A stretch of DNA of 64,000 nt from an uncultured Ignavibacteriota bacterium (GTDB taxonomy: Bacteria; Bacteroidota; Ignavibacteria; Palsa-1295). How positions within the stretch are numbered: position 1 is the first letter of the stretch; every line of letters begins with the position of its first letter. Location of the stretch: positions 1 to 64,000 of the forward strand of contig CAIUMP010000017.1 in assembly GCA_903900335.1 (NCBI GenBank), in the 5' to 3' direction. Both the position numbers and the translations under genes were made by a program. Shown here in pieces: positions 30,683 through 51,718 of the stretch. The notes beneath the pieces were generated by a model. It saw nothing but the letters and a program-made list of their open reading frames with translations. It ran no database searches and had not been told where the DNA came from.

Positions 30683-30902
30683 ATCTGTAACGCCTTCTTG
30701 TGAGTCGTTCCTCGTTTTTGTTTCGCAATGACCACCTTCCTTCTGTGTTCGTTGCGGAGCCGAGTCGTGGCCGGGTGTTTGCGCGCCGTCGAATGAGTCC
30801 CGCGCAAATTGAGACACAGTGAGAGCGCGGAGTGTCGATGACCGGTCCTACCTTCGCGTGTGATCGATCGTCGTCCACGGATGATTGATCTTCTACGTGG
30901 TG

Positions 30903-32213: not shown

Positions 32214-32216
32214 TGT

Positions 32217-33683
32217 ATGTCTAAGATAATCACTCCGCCCCCGTTCCTCAAGACTGCTGCGAAAGCGCCAGCTGCGTTCCCATCTAAAGCTGGTGCAGCG
32301 AAACCGGCTGAGGTCGTTAAGGAAAGAAGCATGCTGCTCCAGAAGGAGATGCTCGGGGATCTATTTCATAGCCTCACCACAGCGAAAGAGACGGGCCGGA
32401 AGGTGGTCTATACGTTCGTGCCGGGTAATCTTTCTGAGTTAATTCTTGCCTTTGACATGCTCCCGGTCTATCCAGAGATCAACGCACTCCAGTGGGGCAT
32501 GCGCAAGAAATCCGGCCAGCTCATTCGCGATGCAGAGAAGTACGGGTATTCGGAAGATGTCTGCACGTACGTGAAGTGCGATGTTGGCATGTTCCTGAAC
32601 GGGAACATCGGACCGACAGGCGAGAAGCTTCCGCCACCGGATCTTCTCCTGCTGAGCTATACCGGCTGCTTCACATTCTTGAAGTGGTTCGAGAGCCTTC
32701 AGAAGCTGTATCCCGGTGTGCCCACTGCCATGTTGCACACGCCATACGCGGCGGACGGCATCGTCACGGACGACATGGTGAAGTACATGACGCGCCAGCT
32801 CGAAGAGGATGTCATTCCGAAGATGGAGCAAGTCTCGGGAAAGAAGTTCAACCCGGAGAAACTCGCGCACCACCTGGACTTAGCGAAGGAAAGCGAAGAC
32901 TGGATCGCAAAGCTCTTCGATCTCACGAAGCAAGTGCCATCCCCAATCGACGCATATTTCGCAGGGGTGTATTACATCGGCCCGATCAATGCGGGCTTCC
33001 GTGGCGCGGAGAGTGCCGTAGAATATTACCATCAGCTCTATGATGAAGTCGCGGCACGCGCTGCGCTTGGCAAGCCGCCCATCACGCCCGAAGGAGAACT
33101 CGAGGAAGAGAAATTCCGACTCGTTGTGGAAGGTCCGCCAAACTGGACGCACTTCCGCGAATTCTGGAAGCTCTTCTACGATATGGGCGTCGTTGTCGTG
33201 GCATCCTCCTATACGAAGGTTGGCGGATACTTTGACGAGGGCTTCCGACACGAGGCCACAAAGCCGCTCGAAAGCCTTGCGCGCTACTGCATGGGCTGCT
33301 ATACAAATTACAGCCTGCCTGAGCGCATCAATATGCTGGAGAAGTTCATCGTGGACTACAAGGCAGATGGCTTCCTGATCAACTCCATCAAGAGTTGTAA
33401 CTCCTTCTCCGCTGGTCAGTTGCTCATTATGCGCGAGTTGGAATCGCGATTGGGCGTACCGGTTTCGTTTATTGAATCCGATCTGGTCGATCCTCGATAC
33501 TTCTCTTATGCGAATATCAAGAACCGTCTCGACTCATTTTTTCAGATGATGGATCAACGTAAGCGTGTTGGCGGCCGTCAGCCATTCACAAGGCAAGCGC
33601 CAGAGATCGCTTCCCAACGCGTAGGTCGGGCGTCCTCGCCCGACACGCTGCTTCCCATTCTTCAGGCGGAGGGCATGCTATGA
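32217..33683 (+). CDS. bcrB: Benzoyl-CoA reductase subunit B (ATP-dependent)
   Basis: A 488-residue BcrB/BzdO-type subunit. VVYTFVPGNLSELILAFDMLPVYPEINALQ, YSEDVCTYVKCDVGMFLNGNIGPTG, LLLLSYTGCFTFLKWFE and INSIKSCNSFSAGQ show the family and its cluster-binding cysteines. It carries a nonconserved N-terminal 40 residues (alanine/proline/lysine-rich) and a C-terminal tail of about 35 residues. The tail includes codons made by a REP-like palindrome at 33625-33644. It forms the substrate-reducing heterodimer with BcrC and receives electrons from BcrAD. The gene overlaps bcrA by 4 nt and follows bcrC after 3 nt. Confidence 0.92.
   Translation: MSKIITPPPFLKTAAKAPAAFPSKAGAAKPAEVVKERSMLLQKEMLGDLFHSLTTAKETGRKVVYTFVPGNLSELILAFDMLPVYPEINALQWGMRKKSGQLIRDAEKYGYSEDVCTYVKCDVGMFLNGNIGPTGEKLPPPDLLLLSYTGCFTFLKWFESLQKLYPGVPTAMLHTPYAADGIVTDDMVKYMTRQLEEDVIPKMEQVSGKKFNPEKLAHHLDLAKESEDWIAKLFDLTKQVPSPIDAYFAGVYYIGPINAGFRGAESAVEYYHQLYDEVAARAALGKPPITPEGELEEEKFRLVVEGPPNWTHFREFWKLFYDMGVVVVASSYTKVGGYFDEGFRHEATKPLESLARYCMGCYTNYSLPERINMLEKFIVDYKADGFLINSIKSCNSFSAGQLLIMRELESRLGVPVSFIESDLVDPRYFSYANIKNRLDSFFQMMDQRKRVGGRQPFTRQAPEIASQRVGRASSPDTLLPILQAEGML
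33625..33644. repeat. REP-like hairpin inside the bcrB coding region
   Basis: GTCGGGCG and CGCCCGAC flank a 4-nt loop inside the last 20 codons of bcrB, and are translated as VGRASSPD. This palindrome is a common intergenic type, so finding it inside a reading frame suggests an insertion that preserved the frame close to the C-terminus. Confidence 0.7.
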
Positions 33684-35128
33684 GCAATTACTATCTTGGC
33701 ATCGACTTAGGATCGACCACATCGAAGGCGGTGATCATCAATCAGCATGATGAGATCATCGGGCGTGGAATCACGAATACCCGCGCGAACTATGAAGTTG
33801 CGTCTGAAATCGCTCGGCTTGAAGCGGTGTATAATGCACGCTTCTCCCTCCTCAAGAGAATGCTGCACTCGGAGTTGGAAGCAAACCCGGAACTCCGGCG
33901 CTACGTCTCCGATCTGGAAGAGGCATTCCAGTATCTGGAATTTCGTATGCGTGCCGACCGGCTCTACCGACAACTGGTGACGACAACGGGCGAGTATCTT
34001 TCGATAGATAACCAACCGAAGATACTCTCCGCGCTCGGACGCATTTTCGAGAATGCGATTCCAGAGATCAAGGAACAATATCTTCATAAGAATCTTGGCT
34101 CGAAGAATCAGTTCTTCCGAGACATTTTCTTCGAGCAGTACAATCATGAGGTCACGAAGCTCGAATCCCCGGCCCTCTTTGAGCCGCTAATGACCGTCTT
34201 CGACAAGAGCATCACACCGGTCGAAAACGAGATCCTTCCGTTGGACTTCGCCGCGCTTGTTCACGAGGCGATGGACATCCTGGAGGAGAAGTACACCGGA
34301 TTCGCTGAGCGCCAAACATCTACTGGTTTTGCTTTTGACGAAGAGTTGAATTTGCTCGCAGGTAATGTGCGCCAGGTGTCGGAGACGATCAAGAAGCATA
34401 TTGACCGTATCGCCGCGCAGAAGATAGATATAGCAAATATGGTCGGCACTGGTTATGGCCGTGCGCTTCTGCCTTTCCCAAAAGAGAGCATTCGTTCGGA
34501 AATACTCTGCCACGCATTTGGAGCGCATATTTCATTTCCGGAAACACGCACGGTGCTCGATATCGGTGGGCAAGACACGAAGGCTATTCAGGTGGACGCG
34601 CAAGGATTTGTCACCAGCTTCCAGATGAATGACCGTTGTGCGGCAGGTTGTGGTCGGTATCTTGGCTATATCGCGGATGAGTTGGGTATGACGCTCAGTG
34701 AGCTTGGGGACACCGCAACGAAGTCAGAGCATGAGACGACGATCTGCTCGACCTGCACCGTCTTTGCTGGTGCGGAGCTTCGCGAGTTGCAGAACCTTGG
34801 AGTACCACGCGAGGACATTCTTGGTGGTTTGCACAAGGCGATCGTGTCTCGTGCAATGTCGCTTATGGCGCGCTCTGGTGGTGTGCGAAACGAGTTTACA
34901 TTTACCGGTGGCGTCGCCAGGAATCCTGCGGTGCTCAAATATCTCAGTCAGTTTGTATTTGAGAATTACGGCACGGACATCACGATGAACGTCCATCCGG
35001 ATTCCATCTTTATGGGTGCTCTCGGTGGTGCCCACTTTGCGCGCCTGGGGGTCAATATTGAATTACCAACAGCGAAGAAATCTAGCTCGGTACCGATGAT
35101 GCCCACGATGGCGGAGGAATTAGTATGA
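33680..35128 (+). CDS. bcrA: Benzoyl-CoA reductase ATPase/activator subunit A
   Basis: A 482-residue ATPase subunit of the BadF/BcrA/HgdC family (ASKHA fold). The phosphate-binding motif GIDLGSTTSKAVII starts at residue 7. DIGGQDTKAIQV is the adenosine-site block. The two cysteine sites of the bridging [4Fe-4S] cluster are in MNDRCAAGCGRYLG and ICSTCTVFAGAEL. An insert of about 190 residues (roughly 40-230) after the first motif is characteristic of BcrA/BzdP relative to HgdC and BcrD. It uses ATP hydrolysis to drive the low-potential electron to BcrBC. The start overlaps the bcrB stop (ATGA). Confidence 0.93.
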   Translation: MSNYYLGIDLGSTTSKAVIINQHDEIIGRGITNTRANYEVASEIARLEAVYNARFSLLKRMLHSELEANPELRRYVSDLEEAFQYLEFRMRADRLYRQLVTTTGEYLSIDNQPKILSALGRIFENAIPEIKEQYLHKNLGSKNQFFRDIFFEQYNHEVTKLESPALFEPLMTVFDKSITPVENEILPLDFAALVHEAMDILEEKYTGFAERQTSTGFAFDEELNLLAGNVRQVSETIKKHIDRIAAQKIDIANMVGTGYGRALLPFPKESIRSEILCHAFGAHISFPETRTVLDIGGQDTKAIQVDAQGFVTSFQMNDRCAAGCGRYLGYIADELGMTLSELGDTATKSEHETTICSTCTVFAGAELRELQNLGVPREDILGGLHKAIVSRAMSLMARSGGVRNEFTFTGGVARNPAVLKYLSQFVFENYGTDITMNVHPDSIFMGALGGAHFARLGVNIELPTAKKSSSVPMMPTMAEELV

Positions 35129-36000
35129 ACACGAACGGACATATGACCGATCACTCCTTCATTTACACGCTAGGGATCGACGTGGGTGGTAGCGTTATCA
35201 AGGCCGTTCTAACCCAATACTCAGAGGACGAGAACGGTGCAGCAAAGACGCGCGTCGTGGGGCGTGGAATGGAGAAGATCCGCAAACGCAATCCCGTCAT
35301 TGTTGCTAACGACCTGATGAAGACGGTCATCGCTAATCAGGGCCTAACCCAGGATGACGTTGCGTACGTGGCTTCGACGGGTGAAGGCGAGATGGTCGAG
35401 CACAAGAGTGGTCACTTCTACGGTATGACAACACATGCGCGAGGCGCCCATAGCTTTTGCGCTGAGGCACGCACGGTGATCGACATGGGTGCATTGTATG
35501 CGCGCGCCATCAAGATTGACTCCACGGGACGCGTTCTCGATCATAAAATGACAGGGCAGTGCGCTTCCGGTTCGGGGCAATTCATTGAGAATATTTCCCG
35601 ATATCTCGGACTATCCATTGAAGAAGTGGGTGACATCTCGCTTACTTCGGTTACTCCCGAACAACCATCCGGTATTTGCGCGGTGCTTGCCGAAACGGAT
35701 GTGATCAATATGGTCTCGCGTGGCATATCCACGCCGAATATCATCAAGGGTATTCATCTATCGGTAGCAAATCGCATTGTGCGACTGCTGATGTCCCTCA
35801 AAGCCGAATCGCCGATAGTGCTTACCGGTGGCCTTGGTCTGAACAAGGGGATGGTACAGGCGATCGAGGAATTGCTTGCAAAGGATACGAAGCAGAAATA
35901 CACGGTGCTAACTCATCCTGCCCCCATCTATGCTGGCGCGATCGGTGCATCGCTGTGGGGAGGATACCGGTATCTCCGGCTTAAGCGGATGGCTGCGTAG
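35125..36000 (+). CDS. bcrD: Benzoyl-CoA reductase ATPase/activator subunit D
   Basis: A 291-residue ASKHA ATPase, close in size to known BcrD. GIDVGGSVIKAV is the phosphate motif, VIDMGALYARAIKID the adenosine-side block, GQCASGSGQFIENISRYLG and GICAVLAETDVINMVSRGI the cluster-cysteine regions. BcrA and BcrD share one [4Fe-4S] cluster at their interface. The last 40 residues bind the second ATPase face. It overlaps bcrA by 4 nt. The start M-N-T-N-G-H-M has a second ATG six codons downstream that would also give a normal BcrD N-terminus. Confidence 0.92.
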   Translation: MNTNGHMTDHSFIYTLGIDVGGSVIKAVLTQYSEDENGAAKTRVVGRGMEKIRKRNPVIVANDLMKTVIANQGLTQDDVAYVASTGEGEMVEHKSGHFYGMTTHARGAHSFCAEARTVIDMGALYARAIKIDSTGRVLDHKMTGQCASGSGQFIENISRYLGLSIEEVGDISLTSVTPEQPSGICAVLAETDVINMVSRGISTPNIIKGIHLSVANRIVRLLMSLKAESPIVLTGGLGLNKGMVQAIEELLAKDTKQKYTVLTHPAPIYAGAIGASLWGGYRYLRLKRMAA

Positions 36001-36171
36001 GTCAACAACACACCCCAAGTCCAGCGGGCCGCACAATTAGCGCTTCCTATGGAAGAATGAGTAGAAGTTTACGATAGGGATCTCGATGCAGGGAGTTCAT
36101 AGCAAACGTGTGTGAGAGCGCATTCGCCACGCTTCCTGTATCATCTTTGACTTTTATCCCGAAGGTGGATC

Positions 36172-38091
36172 ATGAGTGATACCAGCACAATTCTTCGCCC
36201 GACGACTTCCGCCCTTGAGACGAACGGGAGCCGCGCTGTTCCTATGACCTCCATTCAGGGGCCTCCGCTCGGAGATTTCGTGTTGCCGAACATTGCCTCC
36301 ATGCTCGAACGAAACGTTCGGAGGTTGCCGCTCGGTGGGACCTTCAATCAGTTCGACCTTAGACGCTCCGATCGCAGCCCATTCCTTACCGATCGCACAC
36401 CGGCGAGGGTTCATCAAGTCTCCCAGGGACCCAATTGGCTGAATTTTGTGGAATCCATTTGCATGATCGTGCGCGGTCTTCGCGAGTACGGATTGAACCC
36501 GGGGGAATCGGTTGCGATCGTTTCGCAGAACCGGATCGAAATGCTGGAGTTAGAACTTGCCGTTATGGCAAGTGGTGGTGTTGCGATCCCGATCTTTCCG
36601 TTCTATCCACCCGCAATGCTCGATCATTTGCTCGAGTTCTGCGGTGCGCGCTTTGTCGCGGTCGCAGGAGCGGCGCAACTTCAACGTCTATCGCCCGTTC
36701 CACTGATCGAACGCCTCTTCGTCTTTGACGATGTGTCCGACGAGCGATTCCCCGACTTGATTCCGTTCAGTGTACTGACCGAGGGGATCGTTCGGACAAT
36801 GGACGACGCGCTGCTCGATCCGTTCGATCTGTCTGTACTGGATTTCGACGCCGATCCGGACACGATCTGCCTAAGACAATACACTTCTGGCACAACTGCC
36901 AAGCGCAAACTTGTAGAGCTCTCCCATAGGAACATACTTTCTCAGCAAGCGGCGCTCGATCAGGTGTGGTACCTAGGCGAGCATGACCGCTTTCTCTCCT
37001 ATCTCCCTTGGCACCACAGTTTTGGCGGCATCTTTGAGCTTTTCACGGCGCTCTATCGCTGTGTGCCGATGTGGCTCGAGCCATCGTTCGGGAAGGATCC
37101 ACAGTCAATTCTTGCCCATTGGAAGGAGATCCAGCCCACGGCGTTCTTCAGTGTTCCGAGGGTCTATCAATCACTGGTGGATCTTGTGCGCGGCGATCAG
37201 GAGGCGCTTGATACATTCTTCCACCCTGAGCTGAAGTTCGTCTTCACTGCCGCGGCTCCGATGCCAGAGTTCGTAGCACGTGAGTTCGAAGAGCGGGGTG
37301 TGCGCATCATCGAGGGATGGGGTCTCACGGAAACAGCTCCATGCTGCACGATCACCGGCACGACATCCAAGCGGAAATCCGGCATTGTAGGACACCCGAT
37401 CCCGGGTATTGACTTGCGCATCGCTTCTGATGGCGAGATACAAGTGCATGGCCCGAATGTGATGCGGGGTTATTATGAGAATGATGAGGCCAACGCTGCG
37501 TCATTCACCGAGGATGGCTGGTTTCGCACGGGTGATATCGGCACGATCACACCCGAGGGGCTCCGACTCATCGGAAGAAACGACCGCATTTTTAAGCTAT
37601 CGAATGGAGAGAAGATCGTCTCGGCAGATGTAGAAAAGGCGCTGCAGGGGGCTTGCCCGTATTTAACGTTTGTCGTCCTTGAAGGACGAGGTGAGGAATT
37701 CCCCGTCGCATTGCTCTTTCCCAATCGCGGGCTTCTGAACGAACAGACACACAATGAGGATCACCCGGCAAATCAGGGCTGTGTCTGTCCCCGCTCATTG
37801 TCCGATCTTTCACAATGCCTACATGGCTGTCTGGTAGAAGCGAACGAGTCGATCTCCCCGAAGTTCGCACGCGTACCGTACGCCATTCTCGTGGATGATG
37901 ATCTATCGATCGATAGTGGCACGCTTACGCCTTCAATGAAAGTGATACCGGATAAGGTCATTGCGGCCTATCGCGACGCCATTGACAGCGTCTATCATCA
38001 CGAAGATGATAGCGAATTCTCGAACGGTGGACACATCGTCGTTCCGCTGAAACCTCATTCCCCAACATCAACAGCACGCCACCCGCACTAA
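36172..38091 (+). CDS. AMP-forming acyl-CoA ligase with atypical A3 motif
   Basis: A 639-residue adenylate-forming enzyme of the long-chain acyl-CoA synthetase type. GWGLTETAP, VMRGYYENDEAN and DGWFRTGDIG are conserved. The P-loop-like A3 motif, normally YTSGTTGxPKG, reads YTSGTTAKRKLVELSH. The canonical G-x-P-K-G glycines are changed, but the Y-T-S-G-T-T core and a lysine remain. The C-terminal lysine motif LTPSMKVIPDK and an unusual cysteine-rich stretch, GCVCPRSLSDLSQCLHGC (about residue 550), follow. It could activate an aromatic, alicyclic or hydroxy acid. A benzoate-CoA ligase would normally be closer to the BclA type. It is separated by 171 bp from bcrD. Confidence 0.82.
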   Translation: MSDTSTILRPTTSALETNGSRAVPMTSIQGPPLGDFVLPNIASMLERNVRRLPLGGTFNQFDLRRSDRSPFLTDRTPARVHQVSQGPNWLNFVESICMIVRGLREYGLNPGESVAIVSQNRIEMLELELAVMASGGVAIPIFPFYPPAMLDHLLEFCGARFVAVAGAAQLQRLSPVPLIERLFVFDDVSDERFPDLIPFSVLTEGIVRTMDDALLDPFDLSVLDFDADPDTICLRQYTSGTTAKRKLVELSHRNILSQQAALDQVWYLGEHDRFLSYLPWHHSFGGIFELFTALYRCVPMWLEPSFGKDPQSILAHWKEIQPTAFFSVPRVYQSLVDLVRGDQEALDTFFHPELKFVFTAAAPMPEFVAREFEERGVRIIEGWGLTETAPCCTITGTTSKRKSGIVGHPIPGIDLRIASDGEIQVHGPNVMRGYYENDEANAASFTEDGWFRTGDIGTITPEGLRLIGRNDRIFKLSNGEKIVSADVEKALQGACPYLTFVVLEGRGEEFPVALLFPNRGLLNEQTHNEDHPANQGCVCPRSLSDLSQCLHGCLVEANESISPKFARVPYAILVDDDLSIDSGTLTPSMKVIPDKVIAAYRDAIDSVYHHEDDSEFSNGGHIVVPLKPHSPTSTARHPH

Positions 38092-38112
38092 GGACAACCA
38101 ATCAAAACGAAG

Positions 38113-39351
38113 ATGGCAACCCAGGAATTGCATTCGACGCAACTACTCAAAGAGACGATGGGGAAGTATTTTCGCACGTTGGGAGAGTGCGAGAGTGCGG
38201 GCAAGAAGGTAGCGTGGTGCACGAGCACAGGTCCGGCAGAATTGCTGCGGGCCTTCGGCTTCGAGGTGTATTTCCCCGAAAACCACGGAGCACTGCTCGG
38301 CGCGACGCGTACCGCGAGCGACTATATCCCGATCGCTGTCAAACAGGGTTACGCTGCTGACATCTGCTCGTATCTGACCAGTGACATCGGCGCGTTCTTA
38401 GAAGATAGAACACCGCTTAAACAGCATTACGGGTTAAGCAAGCTGCCGCGACCAGACGTACTTGCTTACACAACCAATCAGTGCCGCGAGGTTCAGGATT
38501 GGTTCTCGTTCTATGCGAAGCACTATAATGTACCGCTCGTCGGTATTCATCCTCCCCGCTTTGTGGACAATGTGACAGCCGAACACATCTCCGATGTTCG
38601 TCGGCAGTTCGAGTCAATTGTTCCCACGCTTGAAGCAGTGAGTGGCAGCCGCTTTCACATCGACCGATTCCGCGAGACCGTTCGCTTGAGCAAAGAGGCG
38701 TCAATACTGTGGCGTCGGGTCCTCGAGACAGCGAAGAACATGCCCGCACCACTCAGCTTCTTTGACGGCTGTATTCACATGGGGCCGATCGTCGTCTTGC
38801 GCGGCACCGAAGAAGCTGTTACATACTACGAAGCGCTCCTCCTCGAATTGCAGAATCGTGTCGCAGCAGGCATCGGTGTTGTGTCGAATGAAATATGCAG
38901 AGTGTATTGGGACGGGATGCCCATCTGGGGCAAATTGCGGACAATCTCCAATCTCTTCCAGGCCAGTAACTCGGTGGTCGTAGCATCTACCTATTGCAAT
39001 AGCTGGGTACTGGACACCATGGATGAGCGCAAACCATTCGAATCCACCGCAGAGGCGTACACGCAGATCTTCATCAATCGTAGTGAACAAGCGAAGGAGA
39101 AGATGCTTGCCGACTTTCTCTCGGAGTACAGCATCGATGGTATCATCTATCACGACGCTCGTACCTGCTTTAACAACTCGAATTCTCGGTTCGGAATGCC
39201 TCAGCGACTGCAACTCCTCACGGGGATACCGGCGCTGGTAATTGAAGGTGACCTGTGCGATCTTCGGTTCTTCTCGGAGGGGCAGTCTGTAACGAAGATC
39301 GAAGCATTCCTGGAGCAGCTCATCGAGTCCAAAATGGAAGTGGAGGCCTAA
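38113..39351 (+). CDS. Second HgdB/BcrB-like iron-sulfur protein, single subunit
   Basis: A 412-residue protein of the 2-hydroxyacyl-CoA dehydratase/benzoyl-CoA reductase family. Candidate cluster cysteines are C36 (WCTSTGPAELL), C85 (GYAADICSYLTSDIGAF), C124 (TNQCREVQDW) and C352 (ARTCFNNSNSRF). PENHGALLGATR near residue 55 is a signature of a BcrB/HgdB subgroup distinct from bcrC and bcrB upstream. Only one such chain is encoded here, so it may be homodimeric like double-cubane-cluster proteins, or it may pair with a BcrC-type subunit from elsewhere. It is followed by 1 bp and the fused PanE-ATPase gene, its likely activator. Confidence 0.82.
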   Translation: MATQELHSTQLLKETMGKYFRTLGECESAGKKVAWCTSTGPAELLRAFGFEVYFPENHGALLGATRTASDYIPIAVKQGYAADICSYLTSDIGAFLEDRTPLKQHYGLSKLPRPDVLAYTTNQCREVQDWFSFYAKHYNVPLVGIHPPRFVDNVTAEHISDVRRQFESIVPTLEAVSGSRFHIDRFRETVRLSKEASILWRRVLETAKNMPAPLSFFDGCIHMGPIVVLRGTEEAVTYYEALLLELQNRVAAGIGVVSNEICRVYWDGMPIWGKLRTISNLFQASNSVVVASTYCNSWVLDTMDERKPFESTAEAYTQIFINRSEQAKEKMLADFLSEYSIDGIIYHDARTCFNNSNSRFGMPQRLQLLTGIPALVIEGDLCDLRFFSEGQSVTKIEAFLEQLIESKMEVEA

Positions 39352-39352
39352 C

Positions 39353-41281
39353 ATGGAACAAGCACGCAAACGCATTGCAGTCGTGGGTCTCGGACCAGTA
39401 GGTCAGATCATAGCGGTGCATCTCCACGAAGCGGGGCAGGAAGTGCTCCTCTGCGATATGGATAAGAGCCGCATGCACCTTATTCAAAAGGAGGGGATTG
39501 AGCTCACGGGTGCGATCAAGAAGAAGTCTACATTCGAACATCTCTTCACGTCGGTTCGCGACATCTTGCCCTTACAGCCAGACGCGATCGTGTTTGCCGT
39601 GAAGGCCTATCATCTTGCCGCTCTGATCCATGACATGACGGACTTCCCACGGGAAGGCATTCTGTATATCAGCGCACAAAATGGGATCGACACCGAACTT
39701 GAACTTGCCGAGGCATTCGGAGAGACGAATACGTTTCGCATGGTCGTTAACTTTGCGGGTCTGCATCGAGCGCCAAACGTCATCGGCGTAAGCTTCTTCA
39801 ATCCACCAAACTACGTTGCCTCGATCGACGACTCCAAGACAGAAGCTGCGCGCTGGTGGGCTGAGTTGCTGACGAGTGTCAAGCTCGACACGATGGCCGT
39901 GGATTCCTTCGAGATCTTGCGGCGTGTGTGGGAGAAATCCATTCTCAATTCATCGCTAAGCGCGTTATGCGGCGTTGCGCAGATGAACATGAAGGAGGTG
40001 ATGGCACTCCCAGACATGGTCGATATTATCGAGCAGGTCATTATGGAGTCCATCGCCGTTGCGAAGGCGGAGAACATTCACTTCGAGGTGAATTTCGTGC
40101 GACATTGTCTTCGCTACTTACGAAAGTCCGGAAGCCACTTTCCATCGCTTGCGGTCGATCTCATGCACAAGCGCCCAACGGAGATTGATTATCTCAATGG
40201 GAAGTTCGTCGAGTACGGTAAGAAGCATTACCTCCCAACCCCTATGCACCTTGCCTTTACCAATATGGTGAAAGCAATTACCCAGAAATCGCTCGCGACC
40301 GAAGGCGCAGCACATACTGCGGAAGCAAACCAGCGTGCCACCCAACGCGAGCGTGAACACTTCGCGCTTCCGGCTATGACCAATGGGCAAAGTGGGGCGT
40401 ATTATCTTGGTGTGGATCTGGGTTCAGCATACACAAAGATTGTCGTCATCAATGAGCAGCGGGACGTACTCTATCGCGATGTGGTCAAGACACTGACGCG
40501 CGACAAGAAACCGCTCGCGGACATTCTGGACGAGGTGCGCGACCGATTCCCAATACAGGCCGTGTGTGCCACAGGGTATGGCCGTGAGCAATTCCCGGGC
40601 GCAGATCTGACCAAGACGGAGATCCATTGCGCGGCACGCGCGGTCTATCAGTTGACAGGCAGAGGCGCGAATATCATTGACATTGGTGCCGAAGATATTA
40701 AGATCATCACCATTGATAACAAGGGCGCTGTCCAGCACTTCTATATGAATTCGAAGTGCGCCTCCGGTACTGGTGCATTCCTGACGGAGATGGCGGACAA
40801 GATGGAGGTGAGAATTGACGAGATGAGTCAACTTGCGGCGCTTTCTTCCACAACAAAAGAGCTGAATAGCTTCTGCACAGTCTTTGCCAAGACCGAAGTG
40901 ATGAAGTGGAGCTTCGACCAGATACCCATCGAAGACATTGCACGCGGGGTCTATCTATCACTAACCAATCGTATACTCAAGCTAAAGACAGACACCGCTT
41001 TGCCGATGGTTCTCGCTGGTGGGGTCATCGCGTATCATCCGTTCCTCCGAACGCTCCTCGCAGCGAGTTTCAAAAAGGATGATCACACAGCGGGATCCGT
41101 AAGTGTGATCACGAACCCACAGTTTTGTGTGGCACTGGGTGCTGCATTGTTCGCTCAACGCCATGCACGGCTGGAGCGAACGCTCGTGAGCAACTCTGGT
41201 GCTACAATACATGAAAGTCGCACGATAGAAGAGCCGGTAACCTCCCCAACGGCTCTGAATATTCCAATACTTAGTAATTAG
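39353..41281 (+). CDS. Fusion of ketopantoate-reductase-like dehydrogenase and BcrA/BcrD/HgdC-type ATPase activator
   Basis: A 642-residue protein with two complete domains in one frame. Residues 1-310 are a PanE/ApbA-like dehydrogenase: VGLGPVGQIIAVHL (Rossmann G-x-G-x-x-G at 12-17), AQNG near 108-111, WEKSILNS (the catalytic lysine/asparagine pair, K195/N199) and RPTEIDYLNG (274-283). Residues about 350-625 are an ASKHA ATPase activator: GVDLGSAYTKIVV (353), DIGAEDIKI (443) and the cluster cysteines C469 (SKCASGTGAF) and C508 (FCTVFAKTEV). The linker spans about residues 311-345. The D-I-G-G-Q-D-x-K block has Ala and Glu in place of Gly and Gln. Presumably the activator drives the 38113 protein and the dehydrogenase acts on its substrate or product. 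Confidence 0.9.
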   Translation: MEQARKRIAVVGLGPVGQIIAVHLHEAGQEVLLCDMDKSRMHLIQKEGIELTGAIKKKSTFEHLFTSVRDILPLQPDAIVFAVKAYHLAALIHDMTDFPREGILYISAQNGIDTELELAEAFGETNTFRMVVNFAGLHRAPNVIGVSFFNPPNYVASIDDSKTEAARWWAELLTSVKLDTMAVDSFEILRRVWEKSILNSSLSALCGVAQMNMKEVMALPDMVDIIEQVIMESIAVAKAENIHFEVNFVRHCLRYLRKSGSHFPSLAVDLMHKRPTEIDYLNGKFVEYGKKHYLPTPMHLAFTNMVKAITQKSLATEGAAHTAEANQRATQREREHFALPAMTNGQSGAYYLGVDLGSAYTKIVVINEQRDVLYRDVVKTLTRDKKPLADILDEVRDRFPIQAVCATGYGREQFPGADLTKTEIHCAARAVYQLTGRGANIIDIGAEDIKIITIDNKGAVQHFYMNSKCASGTGAFLTEMADKMEVRIDEMSQLAALSSTTKELNSFCTVFAKTEVMKWSFDQIPIEDIARGVYLSLTNRILKLKTDTALPMVLAGGVIAYHPFLRTLLAASFKKDDHTAGSVSVITNPQFCVALGAALFAQRHARLERTLVSNSGATIHESRTIEEPVTSPTALNIPILSN

Positions 41282-41298
41282 AATTTCCAACCTCCCCA

Positions 41299-42561
41299 AT
41301 GAAGAGCTACCATAATACGGAACGTGGAATAGGCATTACATTCGATGACATTGTACTCTTAGGCGGCGCTCGCACTCCCTTCGGTGATCTGGGTGGCGGC
41401 CTTGCGCGTCTCTCGCCGACCGATCTTGGCATCATTGCTTCGCGTGGTGCGCTTGAACGAACCGGGACTGCCCCCTCAGCGGTCGATCAAGCCATCGTTG
41501 CCAATATTGGTCAGGCGAGTTACGACGCGTATTTTGTTGCGCGACACATTGGGCTGTACGCTGGGCTACCTGTAGGCGTACCGGCACTTCAGGTGCAGCG
41601 CATTTGTGCTTCTGGAATTGAGACGATCGTCACCGGCGCTGAACAGATCGTTCTCGGCAAGGCGGATACTGTCTTGTGCTGCGGCGCAGAGAGTATGTCG
41701 CAAGCGCCAACGGCAAGTTTTGGTAACCGGATGGGGTATCATCTCGGGCAAGTGGTATTCAAGGATATGCTTTGGGAAGCGCTTGATGATACCGCCGCCG
41801 GATTCACGATGGGTGGCACGGCGGAGAACGTAGCGACAGAGCATGGCATCACGCGTGCCGATACAGATGCATTTGGTCTGCAATCGCAAGAGCGCGCCGC
41901 CAATGCGCAAGAGCGAGGATACTTTGCACCGGAGATCGTGGAGGTTCAATCGCAAACATTTGCTGCCGACGGGCTTCTTCCACGCGTGATCAAAGTGGGA
42001 AAGAAAGGATCATCCGTCACGAGGGATGAGCACATCCGCGCGACGACACTCGAAGCTCTGGCGGCATTGCCGACATCCTTCCGCAAAAATGGCGTCCAAA
42101 CAGCGGGCAACAGCGCAGCCATCGTAGATGGTGCAAGTGCGGTCATTATAACATCCGGTGCCGAAGCGGCAAAGCGCTCGGGCACAAAGCCAATGGCTCG
42201 CATTCTTGCAGCTGCGTCGTGCGGTGTGGATCCGAAGTTCATGGGTCTTGGCCCAGTACCAGCGATCAAGCTGCTGCTGGAGCTTGCCGGACTACGCGTA
42301 GAAGATATTGGGCTTTTTGAAATTAATGAAGCATTCGCTGCACAGGTCATTGCATGTGAGCGCCTTCTTGGGCTCGATCACGACAAGGTGAATGTCAATG
42401 GCGGTGCGGTTGCATTTGGTCATCCGCTTGCAGCAACGGGTACGCGGCTTGCGATGACCGTGGCGCGCTCAATGCAGGAACGCGGTGTTCGCTATGGCAT
42501 TGCTTCGGCCTGTATTGGCGGCGGACAGGGGACAGCGATGCTTCTCGAAATCATTTCTTAA
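41299..42561 (+). CDS. Acetyl-CoA acetyltransferase/beta-ketothiolase
   Basis: A 420-residue thiolase. The nucleophilic cysteine is C103 (QRICASGIETI). The second catalytic set is GHPLAATGTR (histidine near residue 374) and CIGGGQG (cysteine near 406). DDIVLLGGARTPFG near the N-terminus is typical of degradative thiolases. Within the benzoyl-CoA operon it would cleave 3-oxopimeloyl-CoA to glutaryl-CoA and acetyl-CoA, a role inferred from context. Length and motifs are normal. The N-terminal 14 residues before DDIVLLG are longer than usual. It follows the fusion gene after 17 bp. Confidence 0.93.
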   Translation: MKSYHNTERGIGITFDDIVLLGGARTPFGDLGGGLARLSPTDLGIIASRGALERTGTAPSAVDQAIVANIGQASYDAYFVARHIGLYAGLPVGVPALQVQRICASGIETIVTGAEQIVLGKADTVLCCGAESMSQAPTASFGNRMGYHLGQVVFKDMLWEALDDTAAGFTMGGTAENVATEHGITRADTDAFGLQSQERAANAQERGYFAPEIVEVQSQTFAADGLLPRVIKVGKKGSSVTRDEHIRATTLEALAALPTSFRKNGVQTAGNSAAIVDGASAVIITSGAEAAKRSGTKPMARILAAASCGVDPKFMGLGPVPAIKLLLELAGLRVEDIGLFEINEAFAAQVIACERLLGLDHDKVNVNGGAVAFGHPLAATGTRLAMTVARSMQERGVRYGIASACIGGGQGTAMLLEIIS

Positions 42562-42584
42562 TAGGGCTCCAAGTATCTATGCTC

Positions 42585-42611
42585 GTCATTCTTCGCTTCG
42601 CTCAGAATGAC
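42585..42611. repeat. Short palindrome of the GTCATTCT/AGAATGAC type
   Basis: An 8-bp inverted repeat (GTCATTCT and AGAATGAC around tcgcttcgctc) fills part of the 71-bp gap between the thiolase and had. It is a widespread palindrome type in bacterial intergenic regions. It could attenuate the operon at this point. Confidence 0.6.
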
Positions 42612-42632
42612 AGCCTTTAGTAGTTAACACAC

Positions 42633-43694
42633 ATGTCAAAGACTATTATCTCCTGGCGCATGGTCGCGCGCGATGCGGACTTAGTGCAAACCTCCACTCC
42701 CATTCCAACGCTCGCCCCAGGCGAGGCGCTCGTCAAGATCGCTGGGTGTGGCGTGTGTCACACCGATATTGGTTTTTGGCACGATGGCGTTGCGACGCGG
42801 CATGGCTTGCCACTCACGTTGGGTCACGAGATCAGTGGTGTGGTAGAAGCCGGTCCAGCGGAGCTTCTAGGCCGCAGCGTGATCATACCTGCCGTACTGC
42901 CGTGCGGCGATTGCGAACTGTGCAATTCAGGCAGGAGCAATATCTGCCGCAATCAGAAGATGCCAGGCAATGATTTCGATGGCGGCTTTGCTTCGCACAT
43001 CGTCGCGCCAGCTCGCTTCTTGTGTCCGGTGCCGAATGAGATGCTGAAGCATCATGATCTTGCAACGCTTAGTGTTATCGCCGATGCGGTAGCGACGCCT
43101 TACCAGGCAGTGAAGAAGTCTGGCATTGTGGAAGGTGATCTGGCGATCGTTATCGGCGTGGGCGGCGTCGGTATTTATGGCGCACTCATCGCAAAGCTCT
43201 TCGGTGCCAAGGTCCTAGCAATTGATATAAACGAAGATAGACTTAGCTCGGCATCGCGGATGGGGATTCAAGCGACACTTAACGTTGCTGGCCTCGACTT
43301 GAAGTCGATCAAGAACAAAGTGCGGGAGATCGCTCAGAGTCTCAGCACGCCGGCGAATGGCTGGAAGATATTCGAGTATTCTGGTACGAAGCCAGGGCAG
43401 GAACTAGCGTTCAATCTGATGACGTACGCTTCGACAGTCTCCATCGTCGGTTTCACTATGGACAAGTTGGAAGTTCGTCTGAGCAACCTCATGGCCTTCG
43501 ATGCCACGATGATCGGCACATGGGCGTGCAAGCCGGAATTGTATCCCGAGATCCTCCAGCTCTTTGCCGATGGTAGGCTATCCGTCGAGCCATTTGTCGA
43601 GAAATTCCCTCTCGACGACATCAATCAAGTTTTCAAAGACACCCTCGCGCACAAATACACAAAGCGCTCGGTCCTCATCCCCAACGGAAAGTAA
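42633..43694 (+). CDS. had: 6-hydroxycyclohex-1-ene-1-carbonyl-CoA dehydrogenase
   Basis: A 353-residue zinc-type alcohol dehydrogenase, recognisable as Had of the benzoyl-CoA pathway. It has AGCGVCHTDIGFWHDGV with the catalytic zinc ligands, LPLTLGHEISG, the structural-zinc block LPCGDCELCNSGRSNICRNQ, and KMPGNDFDGGFASHI, which is nearly identical to the stretch in the Thauera enzyme. The NAD-binding motif is VIGVGGVGIYGALIAK. It oxidises 6-hydroxycyclohex-1-ene-1-carbonyl-CoA to the 6-oxo compound. The order in the operon (had, oah, dch) is the one seen in other class I clusters. The start ATG is preceded by a 71-bp gap containing a palindrome. Confidence 0.93.
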   Translation: MSKTIISWRMVARDADLVQTSTPIPTLAPGEALVKIAGCGVCHTDIGFWHDGVATRHGLPLTLGHEISGVVEAGPAELLGRSVIIPAVLPCGDCELCNSGRSNICRNQKMPGNDFDGGFASHIVAPARFLCPVPNEMLKHHDLATLSVIADAVATPYQAVKKSGIVEGDLAIVIGVGGVGIYGALIAKLFGAKVLAIDINEDRLSSASRMGIQATLNVAGLDLKSIKNKVREIAQSLSTPANGWKIFEYSGTKPGQELAFNLMTYASTVSIVGFTMDKLEVRLSNLMAFDATMIGTWACKPELYPEILQLFADGRLSVEPFVEKFPLDDINQVFKDTLAHKYTKRSVLIPNGK

Positions 43695-43710
43695 TTCGGA
43701 GAAAGCGACA

Positions 43711-44805
43711 ATGAACAAACTTATCAATCACAATCTGGTGCGGGCCGAGTACTCGCACATCCTCTTTGAGAAGCGCCCCTGTAAGACACTCGGTGGGGAG
43801 CCGATCGAAGGTCTGTTCAATGCCTGGATCAGCCTGAACAACCCGGATCAATACAACTCCTACACTACGGAAGCTGTCAAGGAGGTGATCCTCGCATTTC
43901 GAGAGGCCTCAAATGATCGCAGTGTGGTTTGCGTGGTGTTTACCGCAGTTGGGGACAAGGCCTTTTGTACCGGTGGCAACACGAAAGAGTATGCGGAGTA
44001 TTACGCTGGTAACCCTCCCGAGTACAAGCAGTACATGCGGCTCTTTAACGACATGGTCTCCGCAATACTGATGTGCGATAAGCCCGTTATCAACCGTGTC
44101 AATGGTATGAGAATCGGCGGTGGACAGGAGATCGGCATGGCGTGTGATTATTCAGTCGCTCAGGACCTCGCTCGCTTCGGGCAGGCCGGCCCGAAGCATG
44201 GCAGCGCGCCGGATGGAGGCTCGACGGATTTTCTGCATCTGTTCGTCGGTGTTGAACGCGCGATGTATTCTTGCACGGTGTGTGATCCGTTGACTGCGCA
44301 CGAAGCCTACCGCTATGGGCTGCTCTCCGAGCTTGTACCTGCTGCACGCGTGGATGGCGTATGGGTGCCGAATCCGCTCGTTGTTACGGATAAATGGGTA
44401 GATGAGATGGGACAGATCGTCTACGGCACGATGAAGACGGGTGCTGCCCTGGCTGAGGGTAAGGCACTCATGAAGCAGGCTACGGTCGATCTCACAAAAC
44501 TGGATGAAGCCGTCGAGCGGATGTGCGCGAAGCTCCTCAACACCTTTCCGAATTGTCTTTCGAAGACGCTGGGATCCGTGCGCAAGAAGAAGCTGGAGCA
44601 TTGGGATCGAAATAAAGAGAGCAACCGCGAGTGGCTCGGCTTGAACATGATGACGGAAGCCTATGCCGGGTTCAAGGCATTCAACGACGGACCGAAAGAT
44701 CATCGCGAGGTGGATTTTGTGCGGCTTCGTCAACTGCTGGCGGAAGGCCATCCGTGGACGGAAGAACTGGTTCGCGAGGTCTCTCCGCAATTTCAGCACG
44801 CATAA
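43711..44805 (+). CDS. oah: 6-oxocyclohex-1-ene-1-carbonyl-CoA hydrolase (ring opening)
   Basis: A 364-residue crotonase-fold protein. ISLNNPDQYNSYTTEAVKEVI, VFTAVGDKAFCTGGNTKEYAEYYAGNPPEYKQYMRLF, DKPVINRVNGMRIGGGQEIGMACDYSVAQD and RFGQAGPKHGSAPDGGSTDFL are the signature blocks of Oah/BzdY-type ring hydrolases, and distinguish it from ordinary enoyl-CoA hydratases. It adds two waters to 6-oxocyclohex-1-ene-1-carbonyl-CoA and opens the ring to 3-hydroxypimeloyl-CoA. The ATG at 43711 was chosen; a longer frame reaching into had has no homology there. An AG-rich stretch (cggagaaag) precedes it. Confidence 0.93.
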   Translation: MNKLINHNLVRAEYSHILFEKRPCKTLGGEPIEGLFNAWISLNNPDQYNSYTTEAVKEVILAFREASNDRSVVCVVFTAVGDKAFCTGGNTKEYAEYYAGNPPEYKQYMRLFNDMVSAILMCDKPVINRVNGMRIGGGQEIGMACDYSVAQDLARFGQAGPKHGSAPDGGSTDFLHLFVGVERAMYSCTVCDPLTAHEAYRYGLLSELVPAARVDGVWVPNPLVVTDKWVDEMGQIVYGTMKTGAALAEGKALMKQATVDLTKLDEAVERMCAKLLNTFPNCLSKTLGSVRKKKLEHWDRNKESNREWLGLNMMTEAYAGFKAFNDGPKDHREVDFVRLRQLLAEGHPWTEELVREVSPQFQHA

Positions 44806-44821
44806 GTTTCAAACGATAAAT

Positions 44822-45622
44822 ATGGAATCGGAGCTGAAATGTATTCGCGTCGAGCGCGCCCTCCCCACAGGCGCGCCCGAGCAATCGTGTGTGAGACTTA
44901 CGCTTGGGGGGAGCAAGGGAAACATTCTGACGCGCGCCGCTATGGCCGAGTTGCGGCCCGTGCTCGCATCCATCAAGGCCGATCGCGATGTGAAGGCCGT
45001 CGTACTCATGGGTGATGGCAAGCACTTCTCCTTTGGTGCGAGCGTCGAGGAGCATAAGCGAGAACATGCGGCTGGAATGATACACGATTTCCATGAGCTG
45101 ATCCTTGATGTTGCGAATCTTTCGATACCAGTGCTCTCGCTTGTCTCCGGTTATTGCCTCGGCGGCGCAATGGAGCTTGTGCTTGCGACGAATCTCATCT
45201 TTGAAGATGAGACAGCCGTCTTCGGACAACCGGAGATCAATCTTGGCGTATTTCCACCACCTGCCTCGCTACTCTTGCCACTGAAGGTTGGATATGCCCG
45301 GGCGGAAGAAGTGCTGATGAGCGGCGAAAATATTACGGCAGTCCGTGCAAGCGAGTTAGGATTTGTCAACAAACTATTTTCCACAGCAGAAGCACTTCGG
45401 GAAGGCGCTGATGCGTGGATCACAACGCATCTACTTCCAAAGAGCGCAAGCTCCTTGCGCATGGCCGTGCAAGCGGAGCGCGCCGTATTTGCCGAGACCC
45501 TCGCAAGACACTTGCCTCGTCTCGAACGGCTCTATGCCGACGACCTCATGACGACACATGATGCAAACGAAGGCATCGAAGCATTCCTCGAAAAACGAAA
45601 ACCGAATTGGACGAATCAATGA
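44822..45622 (+). CDS. dch: Cyclohexa-1,5-diene-1-carbonyl-CoA hydratase
   Basis: A 266-residue crotonase-family protein. SFGASVEEHKREHAAGMIHDFHELI, YCLGGAMELVLATNLIFEDETAVFGQPEINLGVFPPPASLLLP are close to the Dch/BzdW family, including the F-P-P-P-A-S segment. It hydrates the diene produced by benzoyl-CoA reductase to 6-hydroxycyclohex-1-ene-1-carbonyl-CoA. The start at 44822 is chosen because the longer frame extends into oah without homology. It overlaps the next gene by 4 nt (ATGA). Placement immediately after oah and before the hydroxyacyl-CoA dehydrogenase is consistent with the pathway order. Confidence 0.9.
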   Translation: MESELKCIRVERALPTGAPEQSCVRLTLGGSKGNILTRAAMAELRPVLASIKADRDVKAVVLMGDGKHFSFGASVEEHKREHAAGMIHDFHELILDVANLSIPVLSLVSGYCLGGAMELVLATNLIFEDETAVFGQPEINLGVFPPPASLLLPLKVGYARAEEVLMSGENITAVRASELGFVNKLFSTAEALREGADAWITTHLLPKSASSLRMAVQAERAVFAETLARHLPRLERLYADDLMTTHDANEGIEAFLEKRKPNWTNQ

Positions 45623-47640
45623 AGACGATCAAGACAGTCGGCGTTATCGGCGCTGGAACAATGGGCGCAGCCATAGCACAGAAGTTTGCTCAGGAAGGGT
45701 TTACGGTCATCCTCAATGACCGGACGATGATGTTCGTCGAGCGGGGAATGACGACATTACGGAACAGCCTTGCTGAGGGAGTAGTGAGAAAGGTTTTCAC
45801 GGAAGCATCGGTGCAGGCAATTCTTGGTCGTATCCAGGGCACCGATAACCCGGCTGATCTGGCCGCGTGCGATCTGGTCGTCGAGGCGATCTTCGAAGAT
45901 CTGGAGGCGAAGAAGGCGCTGTTCGCACAGCTTAGCTCGGTCTTGTCAGAAGATGCGATCATCGCGACGAACACATCTTCTTTCTCCGTATCTGTCTTGG
46001 CTCAGTCCGTCACGCACCGCGAGAGATTCTGTGGTGTGCATTATTTCTATCACGCGGCGAAGAACCGCTTGGTCGAGATCATCCCAGGTGAGCACACCTC
46101 CGTGGAGACCGTACGGGCACTACAGCGCTTCGCATTTGAAACAGGAAAGGATGCGATAATGTGCACGGACAGACCCGGGTTTGCCGTGAACCGATTCTTT
46201 GTGCCCTGGTTGAACGAAGCGGCGCAGCTGCTTGATGAGGAGATAGCGGGTGTTAATCGCGTAGAAGCGGCCGCCGTCATTGACAGCGTGTGTCGTAGTG
46301 TGTTCCAGATCGGCATGGGGCCGTTTGCTCTGATGAACGCTACGGGTGTACCGATCGCGTATCACTCCGAGCGGACCTTGGAATCGCTCGGTCCGGTGTA
46401 CACGGTAAGTAAAGCGTTGAAAGATCAGGCGATGAAGAGCGTGCCGTGGGAGATCGCAGAATCCTTCGGCGAGGTCAGCGCAGAAGTTGAAGGGATCATT
46501 CGGGATCGGATGTTTGGCATTGTGTTCTTCGTATGTGGAGAGCTGCTGTCCGAGAATGTCTGTTCGCCGGTCGAACTTAACCGCGGGGCGCGAATCGGTC
46601 TTGCGTGGCGGAAGGGTCCGATCGAGTTGATGCAGAGTGTTGGTGTGCAGGAAGTGGAGCGTTTGGTGGGCGCAATGTCCAGTCGGTACGAGTGCGAAGC
46701 GCCAAAGGAGACCCATCGGGCCTTCGAGCCGATGGAATATGTCTCACTGCATAGAGCAGGATCGGCGGTAATTATTCGTTTCGAACGACCCGAAGATTTG
46801 AATGCATTGAATGAAGATGTTATTGCCCAGCTCGCTGATCGTTTTGATGTTGCAGACAACGACCCAGCTTGTGACACCATTTTGATCACGGGCTGTGGCA
46901 AAGCATTTGTCGCCGGTGCAGACATCGGATTCTTCCTCAAGCATATTCGAAAGGGAAGCATTGAGAGGATCGTTGAGTTTACGGAGCTCGGTCAGCAGGT
47001 CTTCGATCGGATCGATAACTCAAAGAAGAGGGTCATCGCCCTCCTAAACGGCCTCACATTGGGCGGAGGCTTGGAACTCGCATTATGCTGTGATGAGATC
47101 TACGCGTTGCCCGGTGCGCAACTCGCGTTTCCCGAAACAGGGATCGGTATCTATCCAGGACTGGGTGGAACGCAGCGTTCTGTCCGACGCGCAGGCAAAG
47201 GAATGGCAAAGTATCTTATTTTTACTGGTGACATGCTGCGCGCTGCGGAGGCTGCACAAATTGGGTTGATCGATGGTGTTATCTCCTCCGAGCAATACTT
47301 TGCAATGCTCAGCGGTAACGTCGTGGCGCGACTCGCGAGCGAGGCTGTGGTTGAAACCCGACCCTGGAGTGCAATCAATAAGTTCTTCGAGGAGATCCCT
47401 TTGGACAAGCTCCTTGGTGATGAACCTGTTGCCGATGGGATTTCGACAGAAGAGAGTGACCGTTTCCGCAAACGTGTTCGTCAAAAGGCACCGCTTGCGC
47501 TACAGACCGCTGAACGCTTGGTTGATGAGGCCAGAGGATGTGCTTCGGAGCTGGAATTTCTTCCAAACATCTTCCGCACAAACGATGCTCTGCTAGGACT
47601 AAGCTCGGTCGGTAAGAAGGTAACATTCAGCGGTAACTAA
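45619..47640 (+). CDS. 3-hydroxyacyl-CoA dehydrogenase/enoyl-CoA hydratase bifunctional protein
   Basis: A 673-residue fusion with the dehydrogenase first and the hydratase last, the reverse of FadB. Residues 1-290 have GVIGAGTMGAAIAQKFAQEGF and NTSSFSVSVLAQSV, the NAD-binding core. A C-terminal HAD repeat is present at about 290-375 (RIGLAWRKGPIELMQ). The hydratase domain begins near 380, with VAGADIGFFL, LNGLTLGGGLELALCCDEI and FPETGIGIYPGLGGTQ. In this operon it would oxidise 3-hydroxypimeloyl-CoA to the 3-oxo form and can also hydrate enoyl-CoA intermediates. It is the last gene of the plus-strand operon, 20 bp from a convergent gene. Confidence 0.92.
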   Translation: MKTIKTVGVIGAGTMGAAIAQKFAQEGFTVILNDRTMMFVERGMTTLRNSLAEGVVRKVFTEASVQAILGRIQGTDNPADLAACDLVVEAIFEDLEAKKALFAQLSSVLSEDAIIATNTSSFSVSVLAQSVTHRERFCGVHYFYHAAKNRLVEIIPGEHTSVETVRALQRFAFETGKDAIMCTDRPGFAVNRFFVPWLNEAAQLLDEEIAGVNRVEAAAVIDSVCRSVFQIGMGPFALMNATGVPIAYHSERTLESLGPVYTVSKALKDQAMKSVPWEIAESFGEVSAEVEGIIRDRMFGIVFFVCGELLSENVCSPVELNRGARIGLAWRKGPIELMQSVGVQEVERLVGAMSSRYECEAPKETHRAFEPMEYVSLHRAGSAVIIRFERPEDLNALNEDVIAQLADRFDVADNDPACDTILITGCGKAFVAGADIGFFLKHIRKGSIERIVEFTELGQQVFDRIDNSKKRVIALLNGLTLGGGLELALCCDEIYALPGAQLAFPETGIGIYPGLGGTQRSVRRAGKGMAKYLIFTGDMLRAAEAAQIGLIDGVISSEQYFAMLSGNVVARLASEAVVETRPWSAINKFFEEIPLDKLLGDEPVADGISTEESDRFRKRVRQKAPLALQTAERLVDEARGCASELEFLPNIFRTNDALLGLSSVGKKVTFSGN

Positions 47641-49668: not shown

Positions 49669-49684
49669 ACAGATTCAGAGAGCG

Positions 49685-50617: not shown

Positions 50618-50630
50618 ATCTATAAAAAAG

Positions 50631-51671: not shown

Positions 51672-51697
51672 TGGCGAAGTGTGAGTGGAACATGACA

Positions 51698-51718
51698 CAA
51701 GGGGATTGAATCCCCTTG
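51698..51718. promoter_or_regulatory. 21-bp palindrome in the moaA/moaD divergent region
   Basis: Arms CAAGGGGATT and AATCCCCTTG surround a single base. It lies between the divergent starts of moaA (51671) and moaD (51769). It could be an operator shared by the two molybdopterin units, or a REP-like element; no T-run makes it a terminator. Confidence 0.45.

Follow-up and report, generated by a model that had tools for sequence, protein, structure and literature searches.

Within the genome of an uncultured Ignavibacteriota bacterium, which shares a genus-level group with Candidatus Kapaibacterium sp. Chersky.7_45, one open frame encodes a dehydrogenase of the ketopantoate reductase type (KPR) followed by an activase of the kind that serves 2-hydroxyacyl-CoA dehydratases. 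The questions raised by this locus are whether the joined frame is real, whether the two enzymes belong to the same pathway and, if so, which substrate that pathway handles. The window considered here is the whole stretch of 64,000 nucleotides that was analysed (contig CAIUMP010000017.1), and its features are collected in Table 1. A sequence-only reading of this DNA had described the fusion protein (P0001) as one chain carrying both domains with their key residues, and had guessed that a 2-oxo acid is converted through a 2-hydroxy acid into an enoyl product.

Table 1. Location and main characteristics of the features of the window.
Feature	Position	Strand	Characteristics
4-hydroxybenzoyl-CoA-reductase-like Mo enzyme	23544-27349	-	fused gamma+alpha chain 24518-27349, beta chain 23544-24521
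bcr-type class I benzoyl-CoA reductase	30885-36000	+	BcrC 30885-32213, BcrB 32217-33683, BcrA 33680-35128, BcrD 35125-36000
AMP-forming acyl/aryl-CoA ligase	36172-38091	+	639 aa; best solved match (middle part) is feruloyl-CoA synthetase
HGDD2, HadB-like 2-hydroxyacyl-CoA dehydratase family	38113-39351	+	412 aa; invariant Cys 36, 85, 124, 295, 352; Glu56
Fusion protein P0001	39353-41281	+	642 aa: KPR-type dehydrogenase aa 7-311, variable linker ~315-347, acyl-CoA dehydratase activase aa 350-602
KPR domain	39353-40297	+	GxGxxG, Asp35 at end of beta-2, K195, N199, E277; Ser203 for usual second Asn
Activase domain	40400-41158	+	D-I-G-A-E-D motif; cluster cysteines C469, C508
BktB-like 3-oxoacyl-CoA thiolase	41299-42561	+	
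Lower benzoyl-CoA pathway	42633-45622	+	Had 42633-43694, Oah 43705-44805, dienoyl-CoA hydratase (Dch) 44825-45622
3-hydroxyacyl-CoA dehydrogenase / enoyl-CoA hydratase fusion	45607-47640	+	

The fusion and its genomic setting

P0001 is a single, stop-free open frame that begins 1 bp after the upstream HGD-D gene. Three Pfam domains score above their gathering thresholds (ApbA at residues 8-144, ApbA_C at 188-309 and BcrAD_BadFG at 352-601), and the two family models exceed their cut-offs as well (TIGR00745, ketopantoate reductase family, 154.6 against 141.35; TIGR00241, activase family, 155.3 against 125.4). The glycines of GxGxxG (G12/G14/G17), K195, N199, E277 (in RPTEIDYLNG), C469 and C508 are invariant in all fused homologues, so that the frame, the key residues and the spacing described by the sequence-only reading were all borne out. 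The predicted structure of the fusion is of low confidence (mean pLDDT 64, with an alignment of 9 sequences).

An assembly join of two neighbouring genes, which had been named beforehand as a finding that would refute this protein, or an equivalent frameshift, could draw on the unfused neighbouring genes of related families, but we reject it as practically impossible, since the same continuous frame occurs in nine further genomes (43-86% identity), and one of the ten fusion-bearing genomes (G046) is a single contig. The fusion in P0001 is therefore real, and its two enzymes probably act in one pathway. When the domain pair was counted over genomes, as proposed earlier, the fusion was found in 10 genomes from seven genera and five families of one class, all relatives of Kapaibacterium (four from the source genus and six from six other genera), and every one of these fusions sits in the same benzoyl-CoA-degradation cluster. 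For a sixth family (f20, genomes G084 and G101), KPR and activase are separate adjacent genes, with a gene order identical to that of the fused loci; the fusion has thus joined genes that were already neighbours. HGDD2 and KPR are also adjacent in most genomes of families f22 and f19, where the activase lies a few genes away, and genome G032 shows the order KPR, HGDD2, activase. The fused rows require two changes on all three trees computed, but the support does not force more than one, and the fusion may have arisen once or twice.

Reading along the + strand (30885-47640), the gene order is BcrC, BcrB, BcrA, BcrD, CoA ligase, HGDD2, P0001, thiolase, Had, Oah, Dch and the hydroxyacyl-CoA dehydrogenase/hydratase fusion. 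The locus is, therefore, a full anaerobic benzoyl-CoA cluster plus an extra module. Maturation genes for the Mo enzyme are likewise found on the - strand, and no aminotransferase gene is present in the operon of the window. The source genome additionally encodes a benzoate-CoA-ligase-family protein, as do its congeners without the cluster.

Several other features of the window deserve mention. The Mo enzyme carries its 2Fe-2S (gamma) and Mo (alpha) subunits in one 943-aa chain, and molybdenum-cofactor genes (MoeA-like, a MoaC/MogA-like fusion and MoaA-like) lie near it at 48445-51698. The dehydrogenase/hydratase fusion has its hydroxyacyl-CoA dehydrogenase N-terminal and its enoyl-CoA hydratase after it, the reverse of the FadB order. 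At 53674-57447, within a region of large secreted repeat proteins, a 1257-aa protein contains many short GGG-N repeats similar to adhesin head repeats.

About 25 genomes share the combination of CoA ligase, HGDD2, KPR and activase, and it accompanies benzoyl-CoA pathway genes with either type of ring reduction. BcrB scores above its cut-off in 17 of the 391 genomes of the class and the module is present in 16 of these, the exception (G119) being a genome that is 70% complete. Eight f19 genomes contain the module together with Had and Oah (and Dch in those inspected), and lack both BcrB and the class II enzyme (BamB). Near the module, these genomes carry another pair of HGD-D genes. In G224 the pair is bzdN and bzdO (with bzdQ also above its cut-off), and in G310, G099 and G301 it is recognisable as bzd-type from its evident similarity in sequence. 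Given that the same module accompanies either a bcr-type or a bzd-type enzyme, it is not part of the benzoyl-CoA reductase, and is instead peripheral to ring reduction. The notion that the f19 genomes use HGDD2 and the activase as their missing benzoyl-CoA reductase was dropped once bzdNOPQ turned up there. Among f19 relatives, five loci (L129, L130, L131, L135 and L136) have the bzd-type reductase in place of the bcr-type one, with the remaining cluster kept.

The ligase beside HGDD2 in f19 is of the unrelated ADP-forming type, its nearest models being hydroxy-acid CoA ligases (the order in G353 is activase, HGDD2, ADP-forming ligase, KPR). A ligase is thus retained although its protein family changes, which makes the CoA-activation step a constant part of the module. 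In the phylum sample (395 genomes) HGDD2 is confined to the source class, and plasmids yielded distant relatives only.

Two further observations concern individual loci. A HisC-like aminotransferase, a class that acts on aromatic amino acids, lies between tandem KPR genes in f19 (L074, L075, L077); it is the only strong hisC match in each f19 genome and may be plain HisC. In locus L134 (G126:C48), a single stretch carries another three pairs of HGD-D genes together with those for a CooC-like ATPase and an activase, which amounts to an expansion of the family.

The two domains of the chain

The dehydrogenase domain belongs to the ketopantoate reductase family (ApbA/PanE), its two Pfam matches and TIGR00745 all scoring higher than the curated cut-offs. 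Its catalytic Lys and Glu (K195 and E277) are invariant in the 28 KPR sequences compared. The second active-site Asn of the N-x3-N pair is missing, being replaced by Ser203 in 27 of them, and KPR is therefore a divergent family member and probably not a biosynthetic PanE. Asp35, at the end of beta-strand 2, suggests NADH as the cofactor. By sequence, the closest solved relatives are 8wl1 and its variants, followed by 3wfi and 2ew2, and not the E. coli PanE; they are Lactobacillales-type "2-dehydropantoate reductases", including 3wfi, which we take to be a D-mandelate dehydrogenase.

It is also conceivable, but very improbable, that this domain is the ketopantoate reductase of the cell, working in CoA synthesis and recruited to a CoA-hungry pathway. 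The domain is indeed the only ApbA_C protein of the source genome, and of nearly all the genomes examined (the exceptions being the f19 tandem pair and a second, distant copy in G126). Nevertheless, no ApbA_C protein was found in three congeners and one same-family relative that lack the cluster, so the genus does not need one, and this distribution argues that KPR is not a housekeeping PanE. The probable preference for NADH, the Ser in place of the usual substrate-binding Asn and the two copies in f19 speak against a biosynthetic role as well. One of the f19 paralogues has Ile/Val at the N199 position, hinting at a second substrate.

The activase domain is placed among the acyl-CoA dehydratase activases (HgdC/HadI/BcrAD) by TIGR00241 and PF01869, both above their cut-offs, and it retains, invariant, the two cysteines for the bridging [4Fe-4S] cluster. 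Its nearest solved relative by sequence is HadI (4eht), the activator of 2-hydroxyisocaproyl-CoA dehydratase. The sequence-only reading had drawn attention to Ala-Glu where Gly-Gln was expected in DIGGQD. Both residues are there, but the Glu is the family norm: most relatives have DIGGED (Glu447 in 19 of the 23 activase domains) and just four of the 23 have DIGGQD, which leaves Ala446 alone as a genus-specific change.

The same reading had coupled the reductase to ATP-driven electron injection. The two-domain architecture and the ATP-driven activator stand, but electron coupling between the domains is not implied by them: KPR is a flavin-free, hydride-transferring Rossmann enzyme, which cannot feed single electrons to a cluster, and for this reason direct electron transfer from reductase to activase is not expected. 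More likely, the fusion reflects co-production or substrate handling within one pathway.

The presumed catalytic partner

HGDD2 is the presumed target of the P0001 activase, and we infer that it is the dehydratase which that domain activates. HadB is its nearest relative both by sequence (3o3m) and by fold (Foldseek TM 0.88-0.91; VIA Z 45.6; mean pLDDT of the model 86). HGDD2 contains the HGD-D domain, the catalytic-subunit cluster cysteines C85, C124 and C352 and the active-site Glu56; three cluster cysteines and an active-site Glu have been defined for BzdO and HadB (PMC11971306). Two extra cysteines, C36 and C295, are also invariant, giving five in total, against three in HadB and six in double-cubane proteins. 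In the alignment, the position of C295 coincides with that of a double-cubane ligand in BzdN, C36 is one residue off another, and the sixth ligand region has no Cys. The scores against specific models are all below their cut-offs: 210.5 against 750 for the HadB equivalog (NF052455), 173.6 against 486.55 for BcrB, 82.2 against 448.6 for BzdO and 65 against 350 for the double-cubane model (NF040772).

These features bear on two other readings of the module. HGDD2 is also near MbdO, the catalytic subunit of 3-methylbenzoyl-CoA reductase, in sequence and fold, and is always found beside dearomatisation genes, as would be the case if HGDD2 and the activase formed another aryl-CoA reductase, one whose substrate has a substituted or partly reduced ring, with KPR acting on a downstream ring-derived intermediate. 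We consider this unlikely, because the ring route does not normally pass through any 2-oxo acid, the class of compounds on which the KPR family acts, because Had, Oah and Dch already make a complete route, and because of the low BcrB score. Alternatively, HGDD2 might resemble the double-cubane reductases (DCCP type) and act as a homodimer in an accessory function, either redox or detoxifying, the KPR fusion serving an unrelated step; the single HGD-D gene of the module and the cysteines in five of the six ligand regions agree with this, but the missing sixth ligand, the one-residue offset of C36, the low double-cubane score and the HadB fold make it quite improbable.

No second HGD-D subunit gene occurs in the module, and the HGD-D proteins of the source genome (G000) are BcrB, BcrC and HGDD2 only, so that HGDD2 must either form a homodimer or borrow BcrC/BzdN. 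To our knowledge, 2-hydroxyacyl-CoA dehydratases need two different HGD-D subunits; the canonical locus of Azoarcus sp. KH32C, in contrast to the present one, encodes two HGD-D proteins and an activase. A bolder possibility, which we regard as doubtful, is that HGDD2 is a self-sufficient homodimeric radical dehydratase/reductase whose five-cysteine cluster would be of a new kind, intermediate in type between a double cubane ([8Fe-9S]) and a [4Fe-4S] site. It would be driven by an activator that shares a chain with the dehydrogenase producing its substrate, and the whole would constitute a so far undescribed way for anaerobes to turn aromatic amino acids into benzoyl-CoA.

Proposed pathway and comparison with known systems

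We propose, giving the idea about an even chance, that the module converts an aryl-2-oxo acid into (R)-aryllactate, its CoA thioester, aryl-acrylyl-CoA and finally (hydroxy)benzoyl-CoA. KPR, probably with NADH, would form the (R)-2-hydroxy acid from an aromatic 2-oxo acid such as phenylpyruvate, 4-hydroxyphenylpyruvate or a related compound, and the adjoining CoA ligase would form the thioester, although this ligase could serve another acid. The activase would hydrolyse ATP and inject a low-potential electron into HGDD2, which would eliminate water to yield cinnamoyl-CoA or 4-coumaroyl-CoA. The hydratase, dehydrogenase and thiolase of the operon would then carry these by beta-oxidation to benzoyl-CoA or 4-hydroxybenzoyl-CoA, the latter being reduced by the Mo enzyme and the former entering ring reduction. 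Overall, such a route would be redox-neutral and release acetyl-CoA. Gene content and context favour this reading, in which substrate, stereochemistry and cofactor are inferred.

KPR-family products and the substrates of 2-hydroxyacyl-CoA dehydratases are both (R), and the proposed order therefore fits. The had and fld operons comprise a dehydrogenase, CoA activation, an activator and a dehydratase, and the module equals them in gene content. The nearest solved relatives of its parts, the restriction of KPR to genomes with the cluster, and the ADP-forming ligase and HisC-like aminotransferase of f19 point the same way. The sequence from phenylpyruvate through cinnamoyl-CoA to benzoyl-CoA has already been put forward, on paper, for a sulphate reducer that degrades benzene (PMC13416013). 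Against the proposal weigh the lack of a second HGD-D subunit, the low HadB equivalog score and two extra cysteines of HGDD2, the absence of an aminotransferase from this operon, the chance that the f19 aminotransferase is plain HisC, and the low confidence of the fusion model. The order from 2-oxo acid to enoyl product guessed in the sequence-only reading thus gains support from the conserved set of ligase, KPR, HadB-like protein and activase, while substrate and activity stay putative; that reading had not included the benzoyl-CoA setting, the unfused versions, the lack of a second catalytic subunit or the Glu as a family trait.

The same chemistry might act on a non-aromatic (R)-2-hydroxyacyl-CoA (branched-chain or dicarboxylic); the shared operon would then reflect the beta-oxidation with which both pathways finish and their common need for low-potential electrons. 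By sequence, the system that HGDD2 and the activase resemble most is the 2-hydroxyisocaproyl-CoA one, and KPR-family enzymes accept branched 2-oxo acids. The strict association with benzoyl-CoA genes, whatever the family or reductase subtype, and the genes resembling Mo hydroxybenzoyl-CoA reductase alongside in many genomes, nevertheless make this rather unlikely. The fusion would tie two steps of a radical 2-hydroxy-acid pathway into one chain, and the module predicts a way in which Kapaibacterium-like bacteria, a little-studied group, bring phenylpropanoids or aromatic amino acids into the degradation of benzoyl-CoA. Additionally, a one-subunit system of the BCR/HAD family would offer a direct test bed for evolution from a double cubane to a single catalytic cluster.

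Neither domain family is new, nor is the overall chemistry. Judging from the literature covered, which includes few subscription journals, there is no earlier description of the fusion, of its unvarying location within benzoyl-CoA clusters or of the five-cysteine partner with its single subunit; in agreement with the earlier claim, no protein of the P0001 architecture was found in that literature.

Among known systems, the Had system of Clostridioides difficile (LdhA, HadA, HadI, HadBC) shares the set of functions, i.e. 2-oxo acid reductase, CoA activation, ATP-driven activator and HGD-D catalytic protein. The module differs in having a KPR-type dehydrogenase fused to the activator, a ligase instead of a CoA transferase, and one HGD-D protein with two extra invariant Cys in place of HadB and HadC. 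The proposed step from aryl-lactyl-CoA to cinnamoyl-CoA resembles that of the Fld system of Clostridium sporogenes (phenyllactyl-CoA dehydratase), a likeness drawn from the chemistry and not from sequence comparison, but Fld ends in phenylpropionate, whereas oxidation to benzoyl-CoA would await the product of the module. The protein families are shared with the class I benzoyl-CoA reductases (BcrCBAD, BzdNOPQ, MbdONPQ), and the module always sits with a bcr- or bzd-type one; HGDD2 and the activase nevertheless fall outside these reductase families and coexist with a complete enzyme. The double-cubane cluster protein DCCP and its reductase likewise combine one HGD-D gene with one activator and have several cluster Cys in common with HGDD2, which differs by having five Cys instead of six and a low model score. 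Finally, the KPR-type D-2-hydroxy-acid (mandelate) dehydrogenases include the best solved matches after 8wl1 and also have an Asp in the cofactor region, but the KPR domain is about 25% identical to them, has Ser203 for Asn and is fused to an activase.
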